Source of the DNA: Williamsia maris
GTDB taxonomy: Bacteria; Actinomycetota; Actinomycetes; Mycobacteriales; Mycobacteriaceae
Assembly (NCBI RefSeq): GCF_024171815.1
Contig: NZ_JAMTCJ010000003.1
Coordinates: 558,001 to 622,000 of the forward strand
Direction: 5' to 3'
Length of the DNA: 64,000 nt
Below are positions 53,120 through 64,000 of the stretch, piece by piece; the first letter of the stretch is position 1, and each line of letters begins with the position of its first letter. The notes under the pieces were generated by a model. That model did no database searches and had not been told where the DNA came from. It was given only the letters and a program-made list of their open reading frames with translations. A program made the translations under genes and the position numbers.

Positions 53120-53250
53120 GCGATCTGGACACCCCTCTGCGAGATACACGCGCGTACCGCAGGTCAGAGCGTCGACGGACGGGCAGCGAGTCCCCGACTG
53201 ACGGTTTACAAGCGTGCACCGAGCCCGTACCGTGACAATGAACGTTGACT

Positions 53251-53264
53251 ACAACGAGTGTTGT
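53251..53264. promoter_or_regulatory. Inverted repeat upstream of the AurF-like gene
   Basis: ACAAC-GAGT-GTTGT is a 5-base inverted repeat embedded in a longer loose dyad (TTGACTACAAC/GTTGTCAGA). It lies 20 bases before the ATG and just ahead of GGAGGT, so a bound repressor would block transcription. Confidence 0.45.
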
Positions 53265-53283
53265 CAGATTACGGAGGTGTGCG

Positions 53284-54201
53284 ATGACGGTGACCGCAGA
53301 CAGTGTGCAGGCGACCCGACTCGATCAGGGGCCCGGCGAGGTGTCGGATCGTCTGATCGCATCGGCGGCGCGTCTGTCGCGTAACGCGATGACCGAGATC
53401 GACTGGTCCGAGCCGATGGACCCCTCGAAGTACGGCTGCAGCCCGGAGTGGTGCTCGCTGTACGGGACCGAGATGTGGGACGAGTTGACCGAGGAGCAGC
53501 AGATCGCGCTCACCCGGTACGAGTTCGCATCGGTCATGACCAACGGGATCTGGTTCGAGATGATCCTGCAGGAGATGGTCATCCGCGACCAGTACCTCGG
53601 CGAGTACCACTCCCCCGAGTTCCAGTGGTCGCTGATCGAGATCGCCGACGAGTGCCGCCACTCGCTGATGTTCGCGAAGGCCTCGGAGAAGATGGTCGGC
53701 GCGTCCTACCGTCCGTCGCGTTTCGTCGGCTGGCTGGGCAAGGCGTTCATGGCGCTCGCCCGCAACGAGGTCGCCTACGCCGCCATCCTCGTGGCCGAAG
53801 AGGTCCTCGACGTCTTCCAGCGCGGCTGCATGAACGACGATCGCGTGCTGCCGTTCGTGCGCACGGTCAACGAGATCCACGTGCTCGAGGAATCGCGGCA
53901 CATGAAGTTCGCCCGCGAAGAGGTCCGCGAGTCGATGGAGGGTGTCGGCTGGTTCCGTCGCCAGTTCAGTGCGCTGATCATCGCGATCGCCTCGTTCGCC
54001 ATCGTGACCAGCCTGCACGACCCGAAGGCGTACTCCGACGCCGGACTCGACCGGGACCGCGCCGTTGCGACGCGCAAGCGCAACAGCCACTTCCACTCGA
54101 TGATGCGGACGAGCTGCGTACATCTGATGGAGTTCCTCGACAGTGTCGGACTGCTGACCCGGCCCGCGTCGTTCTGGTACCGCAGGGCACGCATCCTCTG
54201 A
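53284..54201 (+). CDS. AurF-type non-heme diiron oxygenase
   Basis: This 305-residue ferritin-like protein of the AurF/p-aminobenzoate N-oxygenase family has the diiron ligand motifs RYEFASVMTNGIWFEMILQEMVI, EIADECRHSLMF, EEVLDVFQRG and EIHVLEESRHMKFAREEV. The substrate cannot be read from the sequence; AurF oxidises aryl amines and relatives hydroxylate other compounds. ATG at 53284 has GGAGGT five bases upstream. The ferredoxin-reductase fusion 65 bases downstream is the obvious electron donor. Confidence 0.92.
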   Translation: MTVTADSVQATRLDQGPGEVSDRLIASAARLSRNAMTEIDWSEPMDPSKYGCSPEWCSLYGTEMWDELTEEQQIALTRYEFASVMTNGIWFEMILQEMVIRDQYLGEYHSPEFQWSLIEIADECRHSLMFAKASEKMVGASYRPSRFVGWLGKAFMALARNEVAYAAILVAEEVLDVFQRGCMNDDRVLPFVRTVNEIHVLEESRHMKFAREEVRESMEGVGWFRRQFSALIIAIASFAIVTSLHDPKAYSDAGLDRDRAVATRKRNSHFHSMMRTSCVHLMEFLDSVGLLTRPASFWYRRARIL

Positions 54202-54266
54202 CCCCCGCACGTCCAATCGCGGACGTCTGGATCGAACCGTCCCGACAATGAAGTGGGGTAACCACA

Positions 54267-55856
54267 ATGGCGTTCGCCATCACACAGTCGTGTTGTAGCG
54301 ACGCAGGGTGCGTCTCGGTGTGCCCGGTGAACTGCATCCACCCCGCACCCGGCGAGCCCGGGTTCGGATCCGCGGACATCCTGCACATCGATCCCGACAC
54401 CTGCATCGACTGCGGCGCCTGCTCGGACGCCTGCCCGGTGGACGCGATCTTCCCGGTGGACCGGCTCGGACCACGGGACGCGCACTTCGCCGAGGTCAAC
54501 GCCGCCTACTACCGCGACCGCGACACCTCGCAGGCCTTCTCCCCGACCGAATACACCGCCCTGCAACGGCTTCCCGACGACCTGCAGGTCGCGGTCATCG
54601 GCACCGGCCCGTCGGCCGGCTACGCGATCCGCACCCTGCTGATGCGTACCGACGCCCAGATCACCGTCATCGACAAGCTCCCGACGCCGGGCGGACTCGT
54701 GCGGTCCGGCGTGGCACCGGATCACCCGGCGACAAAGAACATCACCCACGGTTTCGACCTGCATCTGCGGGATCCGCGGGTCACGCTGCTGGGCAATCTC
54801 GAGGTGGGCAAGGACTTCTCGCCCGCCGAGCTGGCACAGCACTTCCACGGCGTCATCTACGCCATCGGCGCGTCGGAGCCCAAGCGACTCGGCATCCCCG
54901 GCGAGGACCTCCCGGGCAGCACCTCGGCCACCGAGGTCGTCGCCTGGTACAACGGTCTGCCCGACATCTCGAACCCGTTGGCGCCCGCGCGCGTCGGACG
55001 CACGGTGCTGGTGGGTACCGGCAACGTGGCCCTCGACATCGTCCGACTGCTGCACACCGCCCCGGACGATCTCGGTCGCACCGACATCGCCGACCGGTCA
55101 CTGCCGTTCCTGCGGGACAACCGCGTCGGCGAGGTCGTCCTCCTCGGTCGCCGTGGGCCCGACTCGGCGGCCTACACCCCAGCCGAGTACGCGGCGCTCG
55201 CCAACACCCCCGGTATCGAGATCGTCGCCCTCGACGGTTCTGACCCGTCGTCGGTCGACTTCTCCGCGCCGGTCGACCCGAACCGCAAACGAATCGTGTT
55301 CCTGTACAACACCACTCCCATCGAGGTCGTCGGCGAGGGCCAGGTCACCGGCGTCCGGGTCCGCACGGGCGAGACCGAGCACCTCATCCCGGCCGACAAC
55401 GTGATCTCCTCCATCGGATACCGCACCCGTCCCGTCACCGGACTCCCGTTCGACGCCGACGCGGGCCGGATCCCCAACGCCGACGGGCGGATCGTCGACG
55501 GGACAGCTCCCGTGCCCGGCGCCTACGTCGTGGGATGGGCGCGTCGGGGGCCCTCGGGCGGCATCGGCGCCAACCGTGCCTGCGCCGAAGGGACCGTTCA
55601 GGCGTTCATCGACGACGCCGCGTCCGGCGCGCTCGACGTGAGTGCTCGTCCGGACGGCGGGTTCGGCAAGTTCCTCCGGCGGAAGAACCTGAAGCCTGTG
55701 CGGCACCGCGGGATCCGCGCCATCGACCGGATCGAGCGCGAACGCGGCGAGACCTCCGGACGGCCGAGGGTCAAGCTCACCGAGCGCGCGGAGATGCTGG
55801 CCGGCGCCAAGGCGCGTCGCTCGTTGCCGATCTTCCCTCGCCAACGCGAACGCTGA
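54267..55856 (+). CDS. Ferredoxin--NADP+ reductase with N-terminal 7Fe/8Fe-type ferredoxin domain (FprB-like)
   Basis: This 529-residue fusion resembles mycobacterial FprB. Residues 1-60 form a bacterial-type ferredoxin with C9/C10, C15, C19 and C23 (CVSVCPVNC) and C46, C49, C52 and C56 (CIDCGACSDACP). The reductase, related to adrenodoxin reductase, has VAVIGTGPSAGYAI for FAD, VLVGTGNVALDIVRLL for NADPH and VVGWARRGPSGGIGANRACA near the C-terminus. It should pass electrons from NADPH to an oxygenase. Following the AurF-like gene, it probably reduces its diiron centre. Confidence 0.93.
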   Translation: MAFAITQSCCSDAGCVSVCPVNCIHPAPGEPGFGSADILHIDPDTCIDCGACSDACPVDAIFPVDRLGPRDAHFAEVNAAYYRDRDTSQAFSPTEYTALQRLPDDLQVAVIGTGPSAGYAIRTLLMRTDAQITVIDKLPTPGGLVRSGVAPDHPATKNITHGFDLHLRDPRVTLLGNLEVGKDFSPAELAQHFHGVIYAIGASEPKRLGIPGEDLPGSTSATEVVAWYNGLPDISNPLAPARVGRTVLVGTGNVALDIVRLLHTAPDDLGRTDIADRSLPFLRDNRVGEVVLLGRRGPDSAAYTPAEYAALANTPGIEIVALDGSDPSSVDFSAPVDPNRKRIVFLYNTTPIEVVGEGQVTGVRVRTGETEHLIPADNVISSIGYRTRPVTGLPFDADAGRIPNADGRIVDGTAPVPGAYVVGWARRGPSGGIGANRACAEGTVQAFIDDAASGALDVSARPDGGFGKFLRRKNLKPVRHRGIRAIDRIERERGETSGRPRVKLTERAEMLAGAKARRSLPIFPRQRER

Positions 55857-57394: not shown

Positions 57395-58102
57395 TCATTC
57401 CCGCAGAACGGCTTCGAAGGCCACCCGGTCGCCGCGGTAGAGCGACCGCACCTTTTCGATCGGGCGTCCGTCGACATCGAGGCTGCGCCGATGCATCAGC
57501 AGCATCGGCATCGCGGTGGTCGTCTCGAGCAGAGTCGCCTCGCGTGGCGAGGCCAGCACGGTCTCGATGCGCTCGTTCGCGCTGCCGAAGTGCACACCCG
57601 CCTCGCGGATGGCCGCGTACAGCGAGGTCGAGGGGTCGAAGGTGTCGGTGAAGGACGCGAAACGGTTCCGGGGCAGATAGGTGCTCTCCAGGCCGAGTTT
57701 CGCGCCGTCGGCGAGCAGCACGCGTTCGAGGTGCATGACCGTCGACCCACGCTCGATGTGCAGCTCGTCGCACAGGGCGTCGTCACCGGTGATGTCCTCC
57801 CACGTCACCAGCAGACGCCCGGGCACCCGCCCATGGCTGATGGCGCCCTCGGTGTAGGACAGCAGCGACAGCGGTTGGACGAGTTTGGGCGCGGAGACCA
57901 CGGTGCCCCGCCCCCGTCTCTCGATACGCCCTTCGACCAGCAGCTCGTGGAACGCCTGACGGACCGTCTCGCGCGACACCCCGAAGCGCTCGGCGAGGTC
58001 GCGCTCGGCGGGCACCGAATCCCCCACGTCCAGCGTCTCGACGATCCGTTCCAGCTCGGTGCGAACGGCGTAGTACTTGGGGACCCTGGGTACCGCGGTC
58101 AC
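57395..58102 (-). CDS. GntR (HutC/UTRA) family regulator of the phosphonate genes
   Basis: This 235-residue regulator has a winged helix (YAVRTELERIVETLDVGDSVPAERDLAERFGVSRETVRQAFHELLVEGRIERRGRGTVV) and a UTRA ligand domain. ALCDELHIERGSTVMHLERVLLADGAKLGLESTYLP and RIETVLASPREATLL are UTRA hallmarks. GTG at 58102 overlaps the stop of the HD-oxygenase gene (GTGA), so the two are coupled. Its family recognises sites containing TGGTCTAGACCA, two variants of which stand in the divergent promoter region. It probably represses the regulon until a phosphonate is present. Confidence 0.93.
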   Translation of the reverse strand: MTAVPRVPKYYAVRTELERIVETLDVGDSVPAERDLAERFGVSRETVRQAFHELLVEGRIERRGRGTVVSAPKLVQPLSLLSYTEGAISHGRVPGRLLVTWEDITGDDALCDELHIERGSTVMHLERVLLADGAKLGLESTYLPRNRFASFTDTFDPSTSLYAAIREAGVHFGSANERIETVLASPREATLLETTTAMPMLLMHRRSLDVDGRPIEKVRSLYRGDRVAFEAVLRE

Positions 58103-58614
58103 CGGGACACCACCCGGCGTGCGAACTCCAGCACCTCGTCGACCGACAACGCCTGCGCTCCCGGCACTTTGGCGGCGTCGTCGTAGCGTCGCAGCCGCAG
58201 CGCGTCCGACCACCAGGGGTGGCCCGCGCGGGACGACCGCACGAGCGCTCCGCCCTGATACGCCAGCGACCGGATCGACGTGGGCGACAACGCCGCGACG
58301 TAGTCGGGGTCGGTGGCGGCGAGGTACTGCTTGGCCCGGACGTGCGATCCGGCCAGCCATCCGACACGTTCGCCGAATCGTCGGTCGAGCCATTCCTGCG
58401 CCGCATCCTCGTGATGCACCGACGGGTCGACGGCCACCAGCGGACTGTGCCCGACGTCGTGCAGAACACTCGCGAGTATTAGTTCGTCGTCGGCGCCGTC
58501 GAGCACCGCGTGGCGACCCGCCTGCAGAGCGTGGTCGAGCTCGTCCACCTCGACCTCGTCCCACACCCCCCGCAGCGAGGCCAACACCTGCGCGGTCTCG
58601 TCGATCACGTCCAT
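58099..58614 (-). CDS. PhnZ/TmpB-like HD-domain mixed-valent diiron oxygenase (phosphonate C-P cleavage)
   Basis: This 171-residue protein matches the phosphonate-operon HD family. Likely metal ligands are H28 (DHALQAG), H52 and D53 (SVLHDVGH), H67 or H68 (VHHEDA), H91 (AGSHV), and D137 or D145 (WSDALRLRRYDD). Segments typical of PhnZ follow: RAKQYLAATDPDYVAALSPTSIRSLAYQGG. PhnZ and TmpB oxidatively split alpha-hydroxyphosphonates, giving phosphate and a carboxylate. No PhnY/TmpA-type hydroxylase that would form the substrate is in the window. It is cotranscribed with the GntR gene. Confidence 0.9.
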   Translation of the reverse strand: MDVIDETAQVLASLRGVWDEVEVDELDHALQAGRHAVLDGADDELILASVLHDVGHSPLVAVDPSVHHEDAAQEWLDRRFGERVGWLAGSHVRAKQYLAATDPDYVAALSPTSIRSLAYQGGALVRSSRAGHPWWSDALRLRRYDDAAKVPGAQALSVDEVLEFARRVVSR

Positions 58615-58630
58615 TCCATGAGCCTAGCGT

Positions 58631-58646
58631 ATTGGTCTATACCAAT
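58631..58646. promoter_or_regulatory. GntR operator, first copy
   Basis: ATTGGT-CTAT-ACCAAT is a palindrome of the TGGTCTxxACCA type bound by HutC-subfamily GntR proteins. It lies 16 bases upstream of the leftward HD-oxygenase gene. Confidence 0.85.
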
Positions 58647-58677
58647 TGTTCACCCAGCGTTCTCACATCGGTCATTG

Positions 58678-58693
58678 ATTGGTCTAGACCAAT
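58678..58693. promoter_or_regulatory. GntR operator, second copy
   Basis: ATTGGTCTAGACCAAT is a perfect 16-bp palindrome, 47 bases centre to centre from the first copy. It lies just upstream of the rightward FAD-oxidoreductase gene. Confidence 0.9.
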
Positions 58694-58709
58694 GATGCAC
58701 GCTGGCCTC

Positions 58710-59837
58710 ATGAGAATTGTCGTCATCGGCGGAGGCATCCTCGGCACCTCCCACGCACGCTCGGCCGTCCTGCGCGGCCACCATGTCGTCCACCTCGAAC
58801 GCGAGCCGGAAGCGCGCGGCGCGACGGTCCGCAACTTCGGCCTCGTCTGGGTGTCCGGACGCTCCGCGGGAGAACTGGCCGTGGCCAACCGATCCCGCGA
58901 CCTGTGGGAGGAGATCGGTCGATCCGTGCCCGGTGTGGGCTTTCGCCCCGCCGGGTCGATCACCCTCATCCGTACCGCGGATGAGGTCGCTGTCGCCGAG
59001 GACGTGGTCGCCCGCACCGACGCCGCCGAACGCGGTTTCCGTCTCCTCGAGCCCGAGGAGGTGATCGCCGTCAACCCAGCGCTACGCGGCAAGTATCTCG
59101 CCGGACTGCACTGCACCCGTGACGGCGCGGTCGAATCGCGTGTCGCGCTCCCGGCCATCCGGCAGGTACTTCAAGCGACCGGTCGGTACGAGTTCCATCC
59201 GAGTACCGAGGCCCGCGAGGTCGTCTCGTCCGCGGACGGGGTGAACGTCCGCGATGACGCCGGGCGGACCCATCATGGTGACGCCGTCGTGCTGTGCGCC
59301 GGAGCCGCCCACGGCGGTCTCGTGCGCGAACTCGCCGGCGACCTGCCGGTGCGTCGGGTGCGGCTTCAGATGATGCAGACCGCCCCCCTCGACGAACCCC
59401 TGACCACCGCGATCGCCGACGGTGACAGCTTCCGGTACTACCCCGCGTTCGCCGGGGCGAGCCTCGACGACCTCACGACCCGCCAACCGCAGGCCGAGGT
59501 CGCCGCGGACCACCGGATGCAGTTGCTGTGCGTTCAACGCAGCCACGGCGGTCTCACGATCGGCGACACCCACCACTACGACGAGCCCTTCGACTTCGAC
59601 GTCGCCGAGGCCCCCTACGACCACCTTCGTGGGGTTGTCGAGGAGCTGCTCGGTCGTGATCTCCCGCCGATCGTCCGACGCTGGGCAGGGGTGTACTCGC
59701 AGTGCACCGACCCCGCCGAGATCGTCTGCCGCCGTGAGGTCTCCCCGGGCGTCTGGGTCGTCACCGGCCCCGGTGGACGCGGTATGACCCTCGGCCCCGC
59801 GATCGGCGAGGACACCGCCGACGCGATGAACCTGTAG
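58710..59837 (+). CDS. FAD-dependent oxidoreductase of phosphonate operons (TIGR03364 type)
   Basis: This 375-residue D-amino-acid-oxidase-like flavoprotein has the dinucleotide motif VVIGGGILGTSHARSAVLRGHHVVHLERE. RNFGLVWVSGRSAGE, HCTRDGAVESRVALPAI and the C-terminal WVVTGPGGRGMTLGPAIGED follow. This clade is found beside phosphonatase-like hydrolases and is thought to oxidatively deaminate an aminophosphonate, such as an N-methylated or hydroxylated 2-aminoethylphosphonate, yielding phosphonoacetaldehyde. The ATG at 58710 follows the second GntR palindrome by 16 bases. Confidence 0.9.
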   Translation: MRIVVIGGGILGTSHARSAVLRGHHVVHLEREPEARGATVRNFGLVWVSGRSAGELAVANRSRDLWEEIGRSVPGVGFRPAGSITLIRTADEVAVAEDVVARTDAAERGFRLLEPEEVIAVNPALRGKYLAGLHCTRDGAVESRVALPAIRQVLQATGRYEFHPSTEAREVVSSADGVNVRDDAGRTHHGDAVVLCAGAAHGGLVRELAGDLPVRRVRLQMMQTAPLDEPLTTAIADGDSFRYYPAFAGASLDDLTTRQPQAEVAADHRMQLLCVQRSHGGLTIGDTHHYDEPFDFDVAEAPYDHLRGVVEELLGRDLPPIVRRWAGVYSQCTDPAEIVCRREVSPGVWVVTGPGGRGMTLGPAIGEDTADAMNL

Positions 59838-59867
59838 CCCCCTCCCTCCGCATGAGAGAAGCACCCC

Positions 59868-60557
59868 ATGACCACCAGCACGACCTCACCCACCCGGCTT
59901 GCGGTTCTCGACATGGCAGGCACCACCGTCTCCGACGGAGGACTCGTCCTGTCGGCCTTCGACGTCGCGGCCACCACCGCCGGGATCCCCGACGACGGAC
60001 CCGAGCGTGAGCACGCCCGCCAGTACGTCATCGACACGATGGGCCAGTCCAAGATCACCGTGTTCCGCGCGTTGACCGACGACGAGGACCGCGCGCAGGC
60101 AGGCAACCGTGCCTTCGAGGCCGCCTACGACGACCTGATCGGTACCGGCGACATCCACCCCATCGACGGCGCGGCCGAGACCATCGCAGCGTTGCGCGAC
60201 TCCGGGATCAAGGTCGCTCTCACAACGGGTTTCAGCCGCGCCACGCAGCACCGACTCCTCGACGTCCTCGGATGGTCCGACATCGCCGACCTCACGCTGT
60301 CCCCCGAGGAGGCCGGCCGGGGACGCCCCTACCCCGACCTCGTCCTGCGAGCGGTCCTGGATCTCGAGATCGACGACGTCCGCGCCGTCGCGGTCGTCGG
60401 CGACACCTCCAGCGACGTGCTCAGCGGCCTGCGGGCCGGGGCGCGCATCGTCGCGGGCACGTTGACCGGAGCCCACGACCGGCACCAGCTCGCCGTCGCC
60501 GGTGCCACGCACATCGTCGACTCCATCTCCGATTTCGGCCATCTCGTCCTCTCCTGA
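59868..60557 (+). CDS. Phosphonatase-like HAD hydrolase (TIGR03351 type)
   Basis: This 229-residue HAD-superfamily protein has the nucleophile motif LAVLDMAGTTV (D15). The cap segment DTMGQSKITVFRALT holds K62 where phosphonoacetaldehyde hydrolase (PhnX) has its Schiff-base lysine (MGxxKI). LTTGFSRATQHRLL and VVGDTSSDVLSGLRAGA complete the core. It is the phosphonatase-like clade member paired with the FAD enzyme. Its likely reaction is C-P cleavage of phosphonoacetaldehyde to acetaldehyde and phosphate, or a close analogue. Confidence 0.9.
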   Translation: MTTSTTSPTRLAVLDMAGTTVSDGGLVLSAFDVAATTAGIPDDGPEREHARQYVIDTMGQSKITVFRALTDDEDRAQAGNRAFEAAYDDLIGTGDIHPIDGAAETIAALRDSGIKVALTTGFSRATQHRLLDVLGWSDIADLTLSPEEAGRGRPYPDLVLRAVLDLEIDDVRAVAVVGDTSSDVLSGLRAGARIVAGTLTGAHDRHQLAVAGATHIVDSISDFGHLVLS

Positions 60558-60589
60558 CACCGCTCACCACCCACCACGAAGGACCAGTC

Positions 60590-61645
60590 ATGTCTGTTCG
60601 ATCTGATCGAAAACGGTTCCGCCACAGCGCCGTCGCGATCTGCTCCACCACCGCCGTCCTGCTCACCGCCACCGCATGCGGGGGCACCGGCACCGCGACA
60701 TCCGGCTCCGACACCGTCACCGTCTACAGCGCCGACGGCCTCGGCGACTGGTACAAGGCCGAGTTCGCGAAGTTCACCGAGCAGACGAAGATCTCGGTGA
60801 ACTACGTGGAGGCCGGTTCCGGCGAGGTCGTCTCGCGCGTGCAGAAGGAACAGTCGAACCCACAGGCCGACCTCATGGTGACCCTGCCGCCGTTCATTCA
60901 GAAGGCCGACGGTGCCGGGCTGCTCGCGCAATCCGGGGTCGACACTTCCGCCGTCGCCGCCGACAACAAGGACGCGTCCGGCACGTACGTCTCGATCGTC
61001 GACAACTACCTGTCGTTCATCCGCAGTCCGCGTGCCACACCCGCACCCACCACCTTCGACGATCTGCTCGACCCGCGGTTCGCCGACAAGATCCAGTACT
61101 CCACCCCCGGCCAGGCCGGCGACGGCACCGCGGTCCTGCTCCTGCTGCAGCACCTGCGGGGTGAGCAAGGCGGGCTGGACTACCTGAAGCGCCTGCAGGC
61201 CAACAACGTCGGACCGTCGAGTTCCACGGGCAAGCTGCAACCGAAGGTGAGCAACGGCGAGATCATGGTCGCCAACGGTGACGTGCAGATGAACCTGACG
61301 TCCATCCGCGACGACAAATCGGCCTTCGAGGTGTTCTTCCCGGCCGACGCGAACGGGACACGCACGACGGTGTCGCTGCCCTACGTCGCGGGTGTCACGA
61401 AGGGCGCGCCGCATTCGGAGAACGCCACGAAGCTCCTGGAGTTCCTGCTGTCGTCCGAGGTCCAGAAGACCGTCGCGCCCGACGCCCTCGGGGTGTCGGT
61501 GCGTACCGACACCCCGGCCGACTCCGGCGCGAACTCACCCGCGCAGGCGATCGCCGGCGTCACCGTGTGGCGACCGGACTGGAACTCGGTGCTCACCGGC
61601 CTCGACGGGAACGTCGCCGCATACCAGAAGGCCACGGGGAGTTGA
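60590..61645 (+). CDS. 2-Aminoethylphosphonate-type ABC transporter substrate-binding lipoprotein
   Basis: This 351-residue extracellular solute-binding protein of family 1 has a lipoprotein signal (SAVAICSTTAVLLTATACGG). It continues VTVYSADGLGDWYKAEFAKFTEQTKISVNYVEAGSGEVVSRVQKEQSNPQADLMV, the pattern of PhnS2/iron-type binding proteins. VANGDVQMNLTSI and VAGVTKGAPHSENATKLLEFLLSSEVQ follow. It captures the phosphonate and hands it to the permeases. ATG at 60590 has GAAGGA upstream. The gene begins the four-gene transporter block. Confidence 0.92.
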   Translation: MSVRSDRKRFRHSAVAICSTTAVLLTATACGGTGTATSGSDTVTVYSADGLGDWYKAEFAKFTEQTKISVNYVEAGSGEVVSRVQKEQSNPQADLMVTLPPFIQKADGAGLLAQSGVDTSAVAADNKDASGTYVSIVDNYLSFIRSPRATPAPTTFDDLLDPRFADKIQYSTPGQAGDGTAVLLLLQHLRGEQGGLDYLKRLQANNVGPSSSTGKLQPKVSNGEIMVANGDVQMNLTSIRDDKSAFEVFFPADANGTRTTVSLPYVAGVTKGAPHSENATKLLEFLLSSEVQKTVAPDALGVSVRTDTPADSGANSPAQAIAGVTVWRPDWNSVLTGLDGNVAAYQKATGS

Positions 61646-61647
61646 CC

Positions 61648-62841
61648 ATGTCGGACCTCAACACATCGTCCCCGCGTCGACGTCTGCGCGGCGGGACACG
61701 GTCGACACCGACACCGACACCGACGGCACCGACCGGGCCGGCCATCACCTTCGACCGTGTCACGGTCACCTACGGCCGTGGCCGCGCCGCGCAGGAGGCG
61801 CTGTCGGACTTCAGCCTCCGGGTGGCGCCCGGCGAGACGGTTGCCCTGCTCGGCCCCAGCGGCTCGGGCAAGTCGACCGCCCTCAAGGCACTGGCAGGCT
61901 TCGTCCGGCCATCCTCGGGACGCGTACGTCTCGGCGACCGTGACGTCACCGACCTCCCGCCCGCGAAGCGCGGGATCGGTGTGGTCGTCCAGTCCTACGC
62001 CCTGTTCCCGCATCTGCACGTACGGGACAACGTGGCGTTCGGCCTGCGGGCGCATCGTGTTGCCCGCAGTCAGATCTCCGATCGAGTACGCGAAGCACTC
62101 GAGATGGTCAGCATGTCCGGGTACGCCGACCGACTGCCGCGGGAGCTCTCCGGCGGGCAGCAGCAGCGCGTCGCCATCGCCCGCGCGCTGGCGATCCGTC
62201 CCGGGGTGCTGCTGCTCGACGAACCACTGGCCGCTCTCGACGCCGCCCTGCGGCAGTCGATGCTCACCGAGTTGCAGGAGCTGCGGGCCGCCCTGCCCGA
62301 CACGGCGATGCTCTACGTGACCCACGATCAGACCGAGGCGCTCGCCCTGGCCGACCGGGTGGCGGTGATGCGCGACGCGCGTCTGGTCGACGTCGACACC
62401 GCCGACACGCTATGGACCCGCCCTCCGTCGGCGTTCACCGCTGCCTTCCTCGGTGGCGCGAACCTCCTTCCCTGCACGATCGGGCGGGTGTCGGGGACCA
62501 GCGCCCTGGTCTCGGTCGGTGATCGCATGCTCGACGTCACCGCGCCGGCCACCCGTGTCGGGGCGCCGGGCTGGTCCCCGGGCACACCGGCGATGGTCTG
62601 CATCCGGCCCCACGAGATCTCCGTCGCCACGACCTCGGGACGCGGCGCGATCCGCGCGCGGGTCACGGCTGCGGTGTGGCAGGGGGCGACGACGCGCGTC
62701 ACCCTGGCCGTCGACGGTCTCCCGGACGTGCTGCTCGACGCCGATCTCCCGGGCCGGTCCGACCACGCGATCGACTCGGTCGTGTGGGTGACGTTCCCAC
62801 CCGGCTCCGGAGTGCTCGTGTCGACGAACAGCGCGTCATGA
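61648..62841 (+). CDS. 2-Aminoethylphosphonate-type ABC transporter ATP-binding protein
   Basis: This 397-residue ABC ATPase has Walker [12 protein letters not shown], the signature [15 protein letters not shown], Walker B VLLLDEPLAALDA and the switch VTHDQTEAL. A C-terminal TOBE-like regulatory domain of about 120 residues follows. The N-terminus carries a short TPTPTPTAPT repeat before the ATPase domain. ATG at 61648 follows GGGGAG. It overlaps the next permease gene (ATGA) and powers uptake. Confidence 0.93.
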   Translation: MSDLNTSSPRRRLRGGTRSTPTPTPTAPTGPAITFDRVTVTYGRGRAAQEALSDFSLRVAPGETVALLGPSGSGKSTALKALAGFVRPSSGRVRLGDRDVTDLPPAKRGIGVVVQSYALFPHLHVRDNVAFGLRAHRVARSQISDRVREALEMVSMSGYADRLPRELSGGQQQRVAIARALAIRPGVLLLDEPLAALDAALRQSMLTELQELRAALPDTAMLYVTHDQTEALALADRVAVMRDARLVDVDTADTLWTRPPSAFTAAFLGGANLLPCTIGRVSGTSALVSVGDRMLDVTAPATRVGAPGWSPGTPAMVCIRPHEISVATTSGRGAIRARVTAAVWQGATTRVTLAVDGLPDVLLDADLPGRSDHAIDSVVWVTFPPGSGVLVSTNSAS

Positions 62842-63758
62842 CCGCCGGTCTCGTCCAACGCCCACCCGGGGCGCCGACCCCGGTGCCCAACCCACCCGTG
62901 CGGCGCAGCGCCGCCGTGTGGTGGACGATCGGGCCGCTGGTGATCGTCGCCGTCGTGGCGGTCTACCCGCTGGTGCGGGTACTGCTGAACTCCACGTCGG
63001 GGCGCGGGTCGAGTTCGTGGTCCGGGGTGTTGTCGTCCGAGCTGTTCCGGACGTCGCTGCTCACCACCGCGCGGATCTCGGCCTGTGCGACCCTCGGCTG
63101 CCTGGTGCTCGGCACGTTCATCGCGGTGATCCTGGCTTTCGTCCCGTTCCCCGGCTCGACGATCGTGGGGCGTCTGATCGACACCGTCCTCGCGCTGCCG
63201 TCGTTCCTCATCACGCTCGCCTTCACGTTCATCTACGGCAGCGCAGGCATCGTCAACGCGGCGCTGTTCGAGATCACCGGGTCCCGTCCGGTGAACTTCC
63301 TGACCACCGAGCTCGGTGTGATCGTCGCCGAGATCACCTTCTTCACCCCGTTCGTCGTGCGACCCCTGCTCGCCGCGTTCGCGATGGTCCCGCGTGAACA
63401 GCTCGACGTCGCGGCGAGTCTCGGGGCCTCGCCGTGGCGGGTGTTACGCACCGTCGTGATGCCCGAGGCGTGGCCGGCACTGATCGCCGGCGGCGGCCTG
63501 GTGTTGCTGCTGACGCTCAACGAATTCGGGATCGTCCTGTTCACCGGCGCCAAGGACGTCACCACGCTCCCCGTCCTGATCTACACCCGCGGCATCGTCA
63601 CCTTCGACCTCCCCGGGGCCGCGGTGATCGCCACCGTCCAGGTCGGACTGTCGATCGGCCTGTACCTGCTGTATCGAAAGGCGTTCGCACGGATGACCTC
63701 CGGCCGCGATACGTCGACACGGAAGGACGACGGCAATGCTGTTCTGGACCAGGCGTAG
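62838..63758 (+). CDS. 2-Aminoethylphosphonate-type ABC transporter permease, first subunit
   Basis: This 306-residue permease has six predicted helices. One lies near the N-terminus (VWWTIGPLVIVAVVAVYPLVRVLL). The binding-protein-dependent EAA-loop motif is LDVAASLGASPWRVLRTVVMPEAWPALIAGGGLVLLLTLNEFG. It is translationally coupled to the ATPase gene. The next permease gene starts inside its last 23 bases, so the block is read as one operon. Confidence 0.92.
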   Translation: MTAGLVQRPPGAPTPVPNPPVRRSAAVWWTIGPLVIVAVVAVYPLVRVLLNSTSGRGSSSWSGVLSSELFRTSLLTTARISACATLGCLVLGTFIAVILAFVPFPGSTIVGRLIDTVLALPSFLITLAFTFIYGSAGIVNAALFEITGSRPVNFLTTELGVIVAEITFFTPFVVRPLLAAFAMVPREQLDVAASLGASPWRVLRTVVMPEAWPALIAGGGLVLLLTLNEFGIVLFTGAKDVTTLPVLIYTRGIVTFDLPGAAVIATVQVGLSIGLYLLYRKAFARMTSGRDTSTRKDDGNAVLDQA

Positions 63759-64000
63759 TCGCGCCGCGGTATGGGCCCTGTTCGGGATCGTGGTGACGAT
63801 CGTCTTCGTCGCGCCGATCGCCACCGTCGTCCTCGCCGCCTTCGCCGGGTCGTGGAACGGCCCGCTGCCGACCGATCTGGGGGTGGCCCGCTTCGGTGAT
63901 GCGTTGTCCGGCGACGACCTCGCCAGCCTGTCGGTGAGTCTGCAGACCGCGGTCATCGCCGGCGCGCTGGCACTGGTCGTCGGGACCTGGGCCGCGCTGG
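63736..64000 (+). CDS. 2-Aminoethylphosphonate-type ABC transporter permease, second subunit (cut by window end)
   Basis: About 88 residues are visible before the window ends. The protein starts MLFWTRRSRAAVWALFGIVVTIVFVAPIATVVLAAFAGSWNG and shows a second helix, LQTAVIAGALALVVGTWAAL, as expected for the second MetI-type permease of the operon. Its ATG overlaps the end of the first permease by 23 bases. The rest lies outside the window. Confidence 0.85.
   Translation, partial: MLFWTRRSRAAVWALFGIVVTIVFVAPIATVVLAAFAGSWNGPLPTDLGVARFGDALSGDDLASLSVSLQTAVIAGALALVVGTWAAL

Follow-up and report, generated by a model that had tools for sequence, protein, structure and literature searches.

A locus at the end of a 64,000-nucleotide stretch of the Williamsia maris genome (positions 558001–622000 of contig C3, in a five-contig actinobacterial assembly of 4.93 Mb), hereafter the window, encodes the divergent phosphonate genes listed in Table 1. 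The genes for a GntR/HutC-type repressor and an HD-domain protein of the PhnZ/TmpB kind (hereafter HD) run on the minus strand, and those for a FAD-dependent amine oxidase, a phosphonatase-like HAD hydrolase and a four-gene importer of the 2-aminoethylphosphonate (AEP) type run away from them on the plus strand. These identities, the divergent layout and two apparent branches cleaving the carbon–phosphorus (C–P) bond had been proposed in an earlier note made from the DNA letters alone, and they were confirmed here. The same layout was found in many genomes, and the arrangement is thus not chance. The locus is probably a self-contained gene set for importing natural C–P compounds and releasing phosphate from them, to which an optional oxygenase is added.

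The region between the HD and FAD genes contains both ATTGGTCTATACCAAT and ATTGGTCTAGACCAAT. A 16-base operator pattern, with at most one mismatch allowed, found only these two sites in the whole genome, and its reversed control gave 0 matches. In 34 of the 42 relatives that have GntR next to FAD, two such sites (with at most three mismatches to a 14-base core) are spaced 46 or 47 bp apart, whether HD stands between them or not. This twin operator resembles the two sites through which PhnF of M. smegmatis controls a divergent promoter (PMC7866108). The GntR protein probably binds it, and one repressor would then control both transcripts from between the divergent genes. The repressor gene has candidate GTG starts at 58108 and 58102. 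Naming its product by NCBIfam matches was dropped, because PhnF (TIGR02325, 110 bits against a cut-off of 156.8) and PhnR (73.6 bits) were both under their cut-offs. Among the models of the PhnSTUV importer, NF011620 and NF011624 were over cut-off, and TIGR03227, TIGR03258, TIGR03226 and TIGR03255 matched below theirs.

Table 1. Features of the phosphonate locus, with positions in the window and the basis of each assignment
Feature	Position	Strand	Basis
GntR/HutC-type repressor (UTRA domain)	57395–58108	-	PF07702 and PF00392 over cut-off; overlaps the HD gene end
HD-domain protein of the PhnZ/TmpB kind, probable mixed-valent diiron oxygenase	58099–58614	-	TIGR03276, 125.4 bits (under cut-off 214.6); PDB matches; residues
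Operator copy 1, ATTGGTCTATACCAAT, probable GntR site	58631–58646	.	Pattern search
Operator copy 2, ATTGGTCTAGACCAAT, perfect palindrome	58678–58693	.	Pattern search
FAD-dependent amine oxidase, TIGR03364 (HpnW/PbfD) family	58710–59837	+	TIGR03364, 342 bits (over cut-off 285.1); PF01266
Phosphonatase-like HAD hydrolase, TIGR03351	59868–60557	+	TIGR03351, 230.8 bits (over cut-off 218.9); D15-x-AGT; K62
AEP-type substrate-binding protein (PhnS-like)	60590–61645	+	NF011620, 469.3 bits (cut-off 310)
ABC ATPase (PhnT-like)	61648–62841	+	Best match TIGR03258, 346 bits (under cut-off 499.15)
Permease (PhnU-like)	62838–63758	+	NF011624, 382.2 bits (cut-off 247)
Second permease (PhnV-like)	63736–64533 (L002:7736–8533), past the window edge at 64000	+	TIGR03255, 222.7 bits (under cut-off 358.7)

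The oxidase–phosphonatase core

The TIGR03364 family includes PbfD1 of Acinetobacter baumannii, an N-methyl-AEP oxidase; PbfD enzymes convert N-methyl-AEP to phosphonoacetaldehyde, and PbfD2, encoded in a cluster described without PhnW, efficiently accepts AEP as well (PMC10590968). One published pathway consists of PbfD2 and PhnX only, and that report attributes experimental proof of this oxidation to PbfC, PbfD1 and PbfD2 only (PMC10590968). The earlier note suggested that the FAD/HAD pair could free phosphate via phosphonoacetaldehyde, which fits this published route of a PbfD-type oxidase and PhnX (PMC10590968). Of the three family assignments it suggested checking, those of the oxidase to TIGR03364 and of the hydrolase to TIGR03351 held, and that of HD to TIGR03276 stayed under the cut-off (Table 1). 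Against the PhnX equivalog TIGR01422 the hydrolase reached 75.8 bits, under the cut-off of 220. Its D15, A17-G18-T19 and K62 align with the phosphonoacetaldehyde hydrolase 2iof, and K62, invariant in 13 rows, sits at the position of PhnX Lys53, which we take to be the Schiff-base lysine. Because the oxidase family includes PbfD1 and the hydrolase keeps this lysine, the two enzymes alone could release phosphate.

The plain reading of the core would accordingly be import, oxidation and hydrolysis. The PhnSTUV-type importer is predicted to bring in AEP or N-methyl-AEP, the oxidase would turn either into phosphonoacetaldehyde in place of PhnW, and the PhnX-like hydrolase would split this into acetaldehyde and phosphate. 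The core is like PbfD2–PhnX of Mariniblastus fucicola, where phosphonoacetaldehyde also comes from a FAD oxidase without PhnW and passes to a phosphonatase; unlike in the window, no HD oxygenase is placed there by the parts of the report consulted, which name Terrabacteria, mostly cyanobacteria, for PbfD outside the known clusters (PMC10590968).

Across 301 genomes of the bacterial family, TIGR03364 was over its cut-off in 140 and TIGR03351 in 138; only such matches were counted, because both models also respond below cut-off in control genomes. A comparison of place lists put HD next to the FAD gene in 29 of the 301, and one of these 29 FAD genes (genome G192) is interrupted and under cut-off. 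Twenty loci with FAD and no full HD gene were fetched, mostly chosen for their likeness to the window, and 14 of them have the complete set of GntR, FAD, HAD and four importer genes, with HD fragments remaining in two of these 14 (L085 and L088). On the best tree of 49 FAD proteins, 29 of them with HD and with L085 and L088 labelled by hand as HD-less, the presence of HD requires at least 10 changes, four of which are forced by starred branches. Since otherwise complete operons exist without HD, the core is independent of the HD enzyme; these operons and the changes on the tree mark HD as a module that comes and goes. In two loci (L051 and L055), the binding protein that goes with the FAD-HAD-HD-GntR set is of the PhnD type and not of the PhnSTUV type; this assignment comes from TIGR01098, over its cut-off, in L051 and from reading in L055.

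The HD protein and its altered gate

Although under the TIGR03276 cut-off, the HD protein is clearly related to that family, and it matches the solved structures of PhnZ (E 1.8e-15) and TmpB (8.2e-13). A 16-row HD profile, which itself contains TmpB-like and PhnZ-like rows, matched TmpB (1.7e-39) and PhnZ (2.9e-38) in the PDB and no other solved protein at E 0.01 or better. In the genome-contig search, its closest named relative is from Williamsia herbipolensis (83% identical). The diiron ligand set of the MIOX/PhnZ/TmpB type is present (H28, H52-D53, H68, H91 and D145), and these ligands, together with Lys95, Ser113, Gln120 and Arg142, are invariant in 44 HD rows. The residues aligned with the phosphonate contacts are retained as well. 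The nonsynonymous-to-synonymous ratio (pN/pS) was 0.11–0.33 in nine pairs and 0.21–0.37 in five more; HD is thus under purifying selection where present. The family, the diiron ligand motif and the contact-aligned residues are shared with the PhnY/PhnZ and TmpA/TmpB systems, but those have a hydroxylase partner and a YxxE loop, whereas the window HD has no such partner and a WxxV loop (PMC8177086, PMC10574752).

In PhnZ and TmpB, the YxxE loop covers the second iron and reaches towards the amine of the substrate (PMC8177086). The loop of the window HD reads WDEV instead (W18-x-x-V21). Of 105 different HD rows, left after merging 21 duplicate loci, 74 have W ten residues ahead of the first histidine, 14 have Y, 10 have F and seven have some other residue. 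All 78 rows whose locus includes FAD have W or F there, and the Glu27 position varies among E, D, V, A, L, P and T. Eight of the Y rows are paired with TmpA, and in the other six no FAD or HAD was seen (L040, L042, L043, L184, L185 and L186, of which L042 and L186 are short stretches). The Tyr lineages of Rhodococcus opacus/jostii and of Gordonia polyisoprenivorans nest inside F or W clades (support 97 and 91), and their loci keep GntR, the importer and the operators with no FAD or HAD at the locus.

The first loci suggested that loss of Tyr strictly follows from FAD adjacency, but counterexamples left it as a pattern of a single clade. In Comamonas (L215) and Asticcacaulis (L214, with His for Glu), Tyr is present although FAD and phnX are adjacent; two other actinobacteria (L224 and L230) have Tyr with FAD and HAD at 6–8 kb, and Caballeronia (L217) has it with FAD at about 10 kb; the actinobacterial L231, with adjacent FAD, has neither Tyr nor Trp at the gate position. 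Conversely, Trp is retained in five rows without FAD (L121, L134, L152, L154 and L173). An independent-pairs test (without L170 and L042, whose contigs end there, and with L119 and L126 omitted from the FAD trait) gave three supported pairs and no significance, on a tree that rests on few columns and lacks L183 (loop WDEE, adjoining FAD), which the motif pattern missed. Within the clade, the link between Tyr and FAD thus appears suggestive, not established.

Apart from these loci, five others (L039, L041, L049, L054 and L064) carry a diverged HD group (37–43% identical) with the loop WDMPDRSGDPVD or similar, and the phosphonate enzymes of the window were not found near them. On a Rhodococcus qingshengii plasmid, a lone HD gene (L187:7986–8513; 60% identical, loop FDGE) adjoins an arylsulfatase, and no FAD, HAD or GntR partner was found.

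The absent hydroxylase and the partners of HD genes

The earlier note saw no PhnY/TmpA-type hydroxylase, and this holds nearby and, for any recognisable one, genome-wide. One option it offered, a gene past position 64000, is refuted for the 12 kb that follow, where no hydroxylase-like open reading frame (ORF) was seen by eye among those of at least 200 aa; the stretch further on (L003) was covered by the genome-wide family searches. The genome offers six 2-oxoglutarate oxygenase candidates (three PhyH and three TauD matches), none of them closer to the HD gene than about 99 kb. In an NCBIfam search at E 1e-8, none of the six matched the TmpA model, the best PhnY-type score came from one PhyH protein (36.6 bits, where the methylphosphonate hydroxylase model has a cut-off of 500), the TauD proteins resembled taurine dioxygenase below its cut-off, and two candidates matched no model. 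C–P lyase and PhnW genes, which the note had not seen either, were likewise not recovered: PhnJ is absent from the genome and the PhnW model TIGR03301 stays at background (37.8 bits, cut-off 360.8), in a search that did not extend to PhnA and PbfA.

Real hydroxylase–HD pairs are detectable by this method, because they were found within the same bacterial family. In eight loci (L077–L084), an HD gene with the loop YLGE adjoins a TauD protein, and both of the TauD partners scored exceed the TmpA cut-off of 400 bits (407.1 and 404.9). These TmpA–TmpB type pairs form a second, separate type of phosphonate locus in the family, and most have their own ABC importer and GntR gene. In L076, HD stands with a PhyH protein closest to methylphosphonate hydroxylase (275.3 of 500 bits).

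Across 129 HD loci (L233 was dropped from 130, its HD not being found at E 1e-10), 84 have FAD at a distance of up to 8 kb, 22 have a TauD or PhyH gene within 1.5 kb, and none has both; the sample is weighted towards the window clade, a search with which supplied 80 of the loci, so the ratio means little and the mutual exclusion is the point. The hydroxylase scan used our own profiles, built from five TauD and four PhyH seed proteins, and a distant oxygenase could escape them. One FAD-linked locus, L065 (L150 is from the same genome), has an ORF of the TauD type roughly 6.5 kb away from HD. Among 18 loci from a class-wide search outside the family, 12 had a hydroxylase, three FAD and two neither, and one was dropped. 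The mutual exclusion speaks for HD enzymes that are supplied with their substrate otherwise. Three loci (L040, L043 and L184) keep GntR, HD and the four importer genes with no FAD or HAD adjoining; HD with an importer alone argues that the substrate arrives already hydroxylated, the option of the earlier note that these loci favour.

HD proteins with an intact YxxE loop also occur in C–P lyase operons, namely in two actinobacterial metagenome-assembled genomes with PhnL/PhnM-like neighbours (L185:7908–8561 and L186, about 1939–2418) and on a Variovorax plasmid with annotated PhnIJKLM and PhnCDE (L216:6992–7540). A TauD/PhyH profile scan found no hydroxylase in these three stretches. Within the window, at 53245–55856, lie genes for a putative diiron oxygenase-like protein and then a ferredoxin-NADP reductase-like protein, both named from ORF reading only.

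Candidate explanations and their meaning

Taken together, the locus is best explained as a GntR-controlled phosphonate-scavenging set made of the core and an accessory gene. In this explanation, whose chances we consider evenly balanced, HD would be an accessory diiron oxygenase that acts on an aminophosphonate imported in already hydroxylated form, and it would be an addition to the known oxidase–phosphonatase route. Its substrate, a second imported compound with an alpha-hydroxyl group, would most likely be (R)-1-hydroxy-AEP (HAEP) or an N-alkyl form, cleaved to phosphate and a glycine-type product; since such a substrate is already hydroxylated, no PhnY/TmpA partner would be needed. HD would then take the niche held in other AEP clusters by the lyase PbfA, their HAEP branch (PMC12366243, PMC10574752). 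The PhnZ-type C–P oxygenase pathways described so far, in four versions, include a hydroxylase (PMC10574752).

Several observations weigh against this explanation. Trp replaces the gating Tyr and Val the amine-binding Glu in the window HD, and its substrate may therefore be something other than an aminated alpha-hydroxyphosphonate. The protein is also below the cut-offs of the TmpB and PhnZ1 models, and its gene shows the weakest constraint among those compared in seven of nine pairs, not counting the interrupted FAD gene of L047. The hydroxyl group could still come from one of the six unlinked 2-oxoglutarate oxygenases. Of the three genomes with HD and importer alone, the two that were checked, those of L040 and L043 (G251 and G203), carry another, distantly related FAD–HAD pair elsewhere (FAD 454 and 460 bits; the G251 protein and the window FAD are 27% identical), so that HD is alone there only as a locus. 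Finally, seven of the 129 loci have HD and FAD with no HAD within 8 kb (L126 being a short contig), and genome G162 lacks any over-cut-off HAD (best E 4e-16); both fit a route from FAD to HD better.

Such a route, with the FAD enzyme and the oxygenase in series, had been another option of the earlier note and now looks less likely; we regard it as improbable, yet worth keeping in view. The oxidase would deaminate (R)-HAEP or N-methyl-HAEP to an alpha-hydroxy aldehyde whose C–P bond HD would cleave, with the hydrolase serving a parallel AEP branch. The HAD-less loci and the distant FAD genes just described favour it, as do the varying Glu27 position and the W or F of every FAD-bearing row, since HD would then need neither the amine-binding Glu nor the Tyr gate, and the NCBI family text quoted in one report proposes HAEP as a possible TIGR03364 substrate (PMC10590968). 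Nevertheless, L040, L043 and L184 have HD and the importer without adjoining FAD, Tyr does coexist with FAD and a phosphonatase-type HAD outside the family (adjacent in L214 and L215, 6–8 kb apart in L224 and L230), and phosphonoacetaldehyde, the product of the characterised PbfD enzymes, is an aldehyde without an alpha-hydroxyl (PMC10590968). A bolder proposal, which we hold to be rather doubtful, is that the mycobacterial HD clade is a hydroxylase-independent C–P oxygenase that has a remodelled gate (Trp or Phe replacing Tyr24, a drifting Glu27) and acts behind the flavin oxidase on the alpha-hydroxy aldehyde; where the neighbouring oxidase is missing, in Rhodococcus opacus, R. jostii and Gordonia polyisoprenivorans, Tyr would be back and the imported aminophosphonate cleaved directly. 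If true, the action of HD on an alpha-hydroxy aldehyde would be a new oxidative C–P cleavage step.

The loss of the Tyr gate, the HD fragments in L085 and L088, the scores below all three curated cut-offs and the weakest constraint of the genes compared in seven of nine pairs would also suit an HD that is no longer a phosphonate oxygenase, being a hydrolase or a decaying relic. The invariant ligands and the four further invariant residues, the low pN/pS of the nine pairs and the restriction of structural matches to PhnZ and TmpB speak against it, and we judge it rather unlikely. Slightly harder still to credit is a two-step oxidative route in which an unlinked TauD or PhyH protein hydroxylates AEP and HD finishes the reaction. 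The genome does hold six such proteins, and L065 shows a TauD-type ORF at some distance from HD, but none of the six comes near the TmpA or PhnY-type models, none has the operator at its gene, and the known HD–hydroxylase partners stand within 1.5 kb of each other in 22 loci. The anatomy, the families, the metal ligands, the catalytic lysine, the operator pair, the lack of a recognisable hydroxylase and the optional presence of HD can be read from the sequences, and from these the substrates, the reactions and the binding of the repressor are all predicted.

The earlier note is partly supported: it was right on the anatomy and the missing hydroxylase, but its view of novelty and of dependence on HD needs correction. 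It held that the combination in an actinobacterium would define a distinct route. On the one hand, the oxidase–phosphonatase–HD trio is already known. The phnX-hpnW-phnHD cluster of Achromobacter, like the window, joins a phosphonatase, a TIGR03364 oxidase and a TIGR03276 HD protein without PhnW, and HAEP was proposed from modelling as its HD substrate (PMC11203657). The Achromobacter clusters have a LysR regulator and PhnX where the window has GntR and a TIGR03351 HAD, and their HD proteins keep the known substrate- and iron-binding residues in similar positions, whereas the Tyr-Glu loop is changed in the window (PMC11203657). HD divergent from FAD-phnX is also annotated on Asticcacaulis and Comamonas plasmids, which removes the actinobacterial specificity. 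On the other hand, no earlier report of the cluster in Mycobacteriales appeared by title among the matches listed, in searches whose scope took in few subscription papers and whose sole on-topic match was PMC11203657. As far as these searches tell, three points are new: that Mycobacteriales commonly have an oxidase–phosphonatase operon equipped with an AEP-type importer and a twin operator, that HD is an optional module of it, and that the gate of the HD enzymes is changed in this clade.

Passages of one review treat phosphonate use by Mycobacteriales mainly through C–P lyase and PhnCDE genes (PMC7866108); the present operon points to a widespread phosphonate route in this order. AEP clusters have been described by Zangelmi and colleagues as assembled à la carte (PMC10590968). 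Here, a large environmental actinobacterial clade keeps an oxygenase without its hydroxylase, beside an operon that also occurs without HD. The HD variants provide a natural series of gates for the study of oxygen-site protection in diiron oxygenases. The locus also makes it testable whether soils offer enough hydroxylated aminophosphonates for these to serve by themselves as a source of phosphorus.

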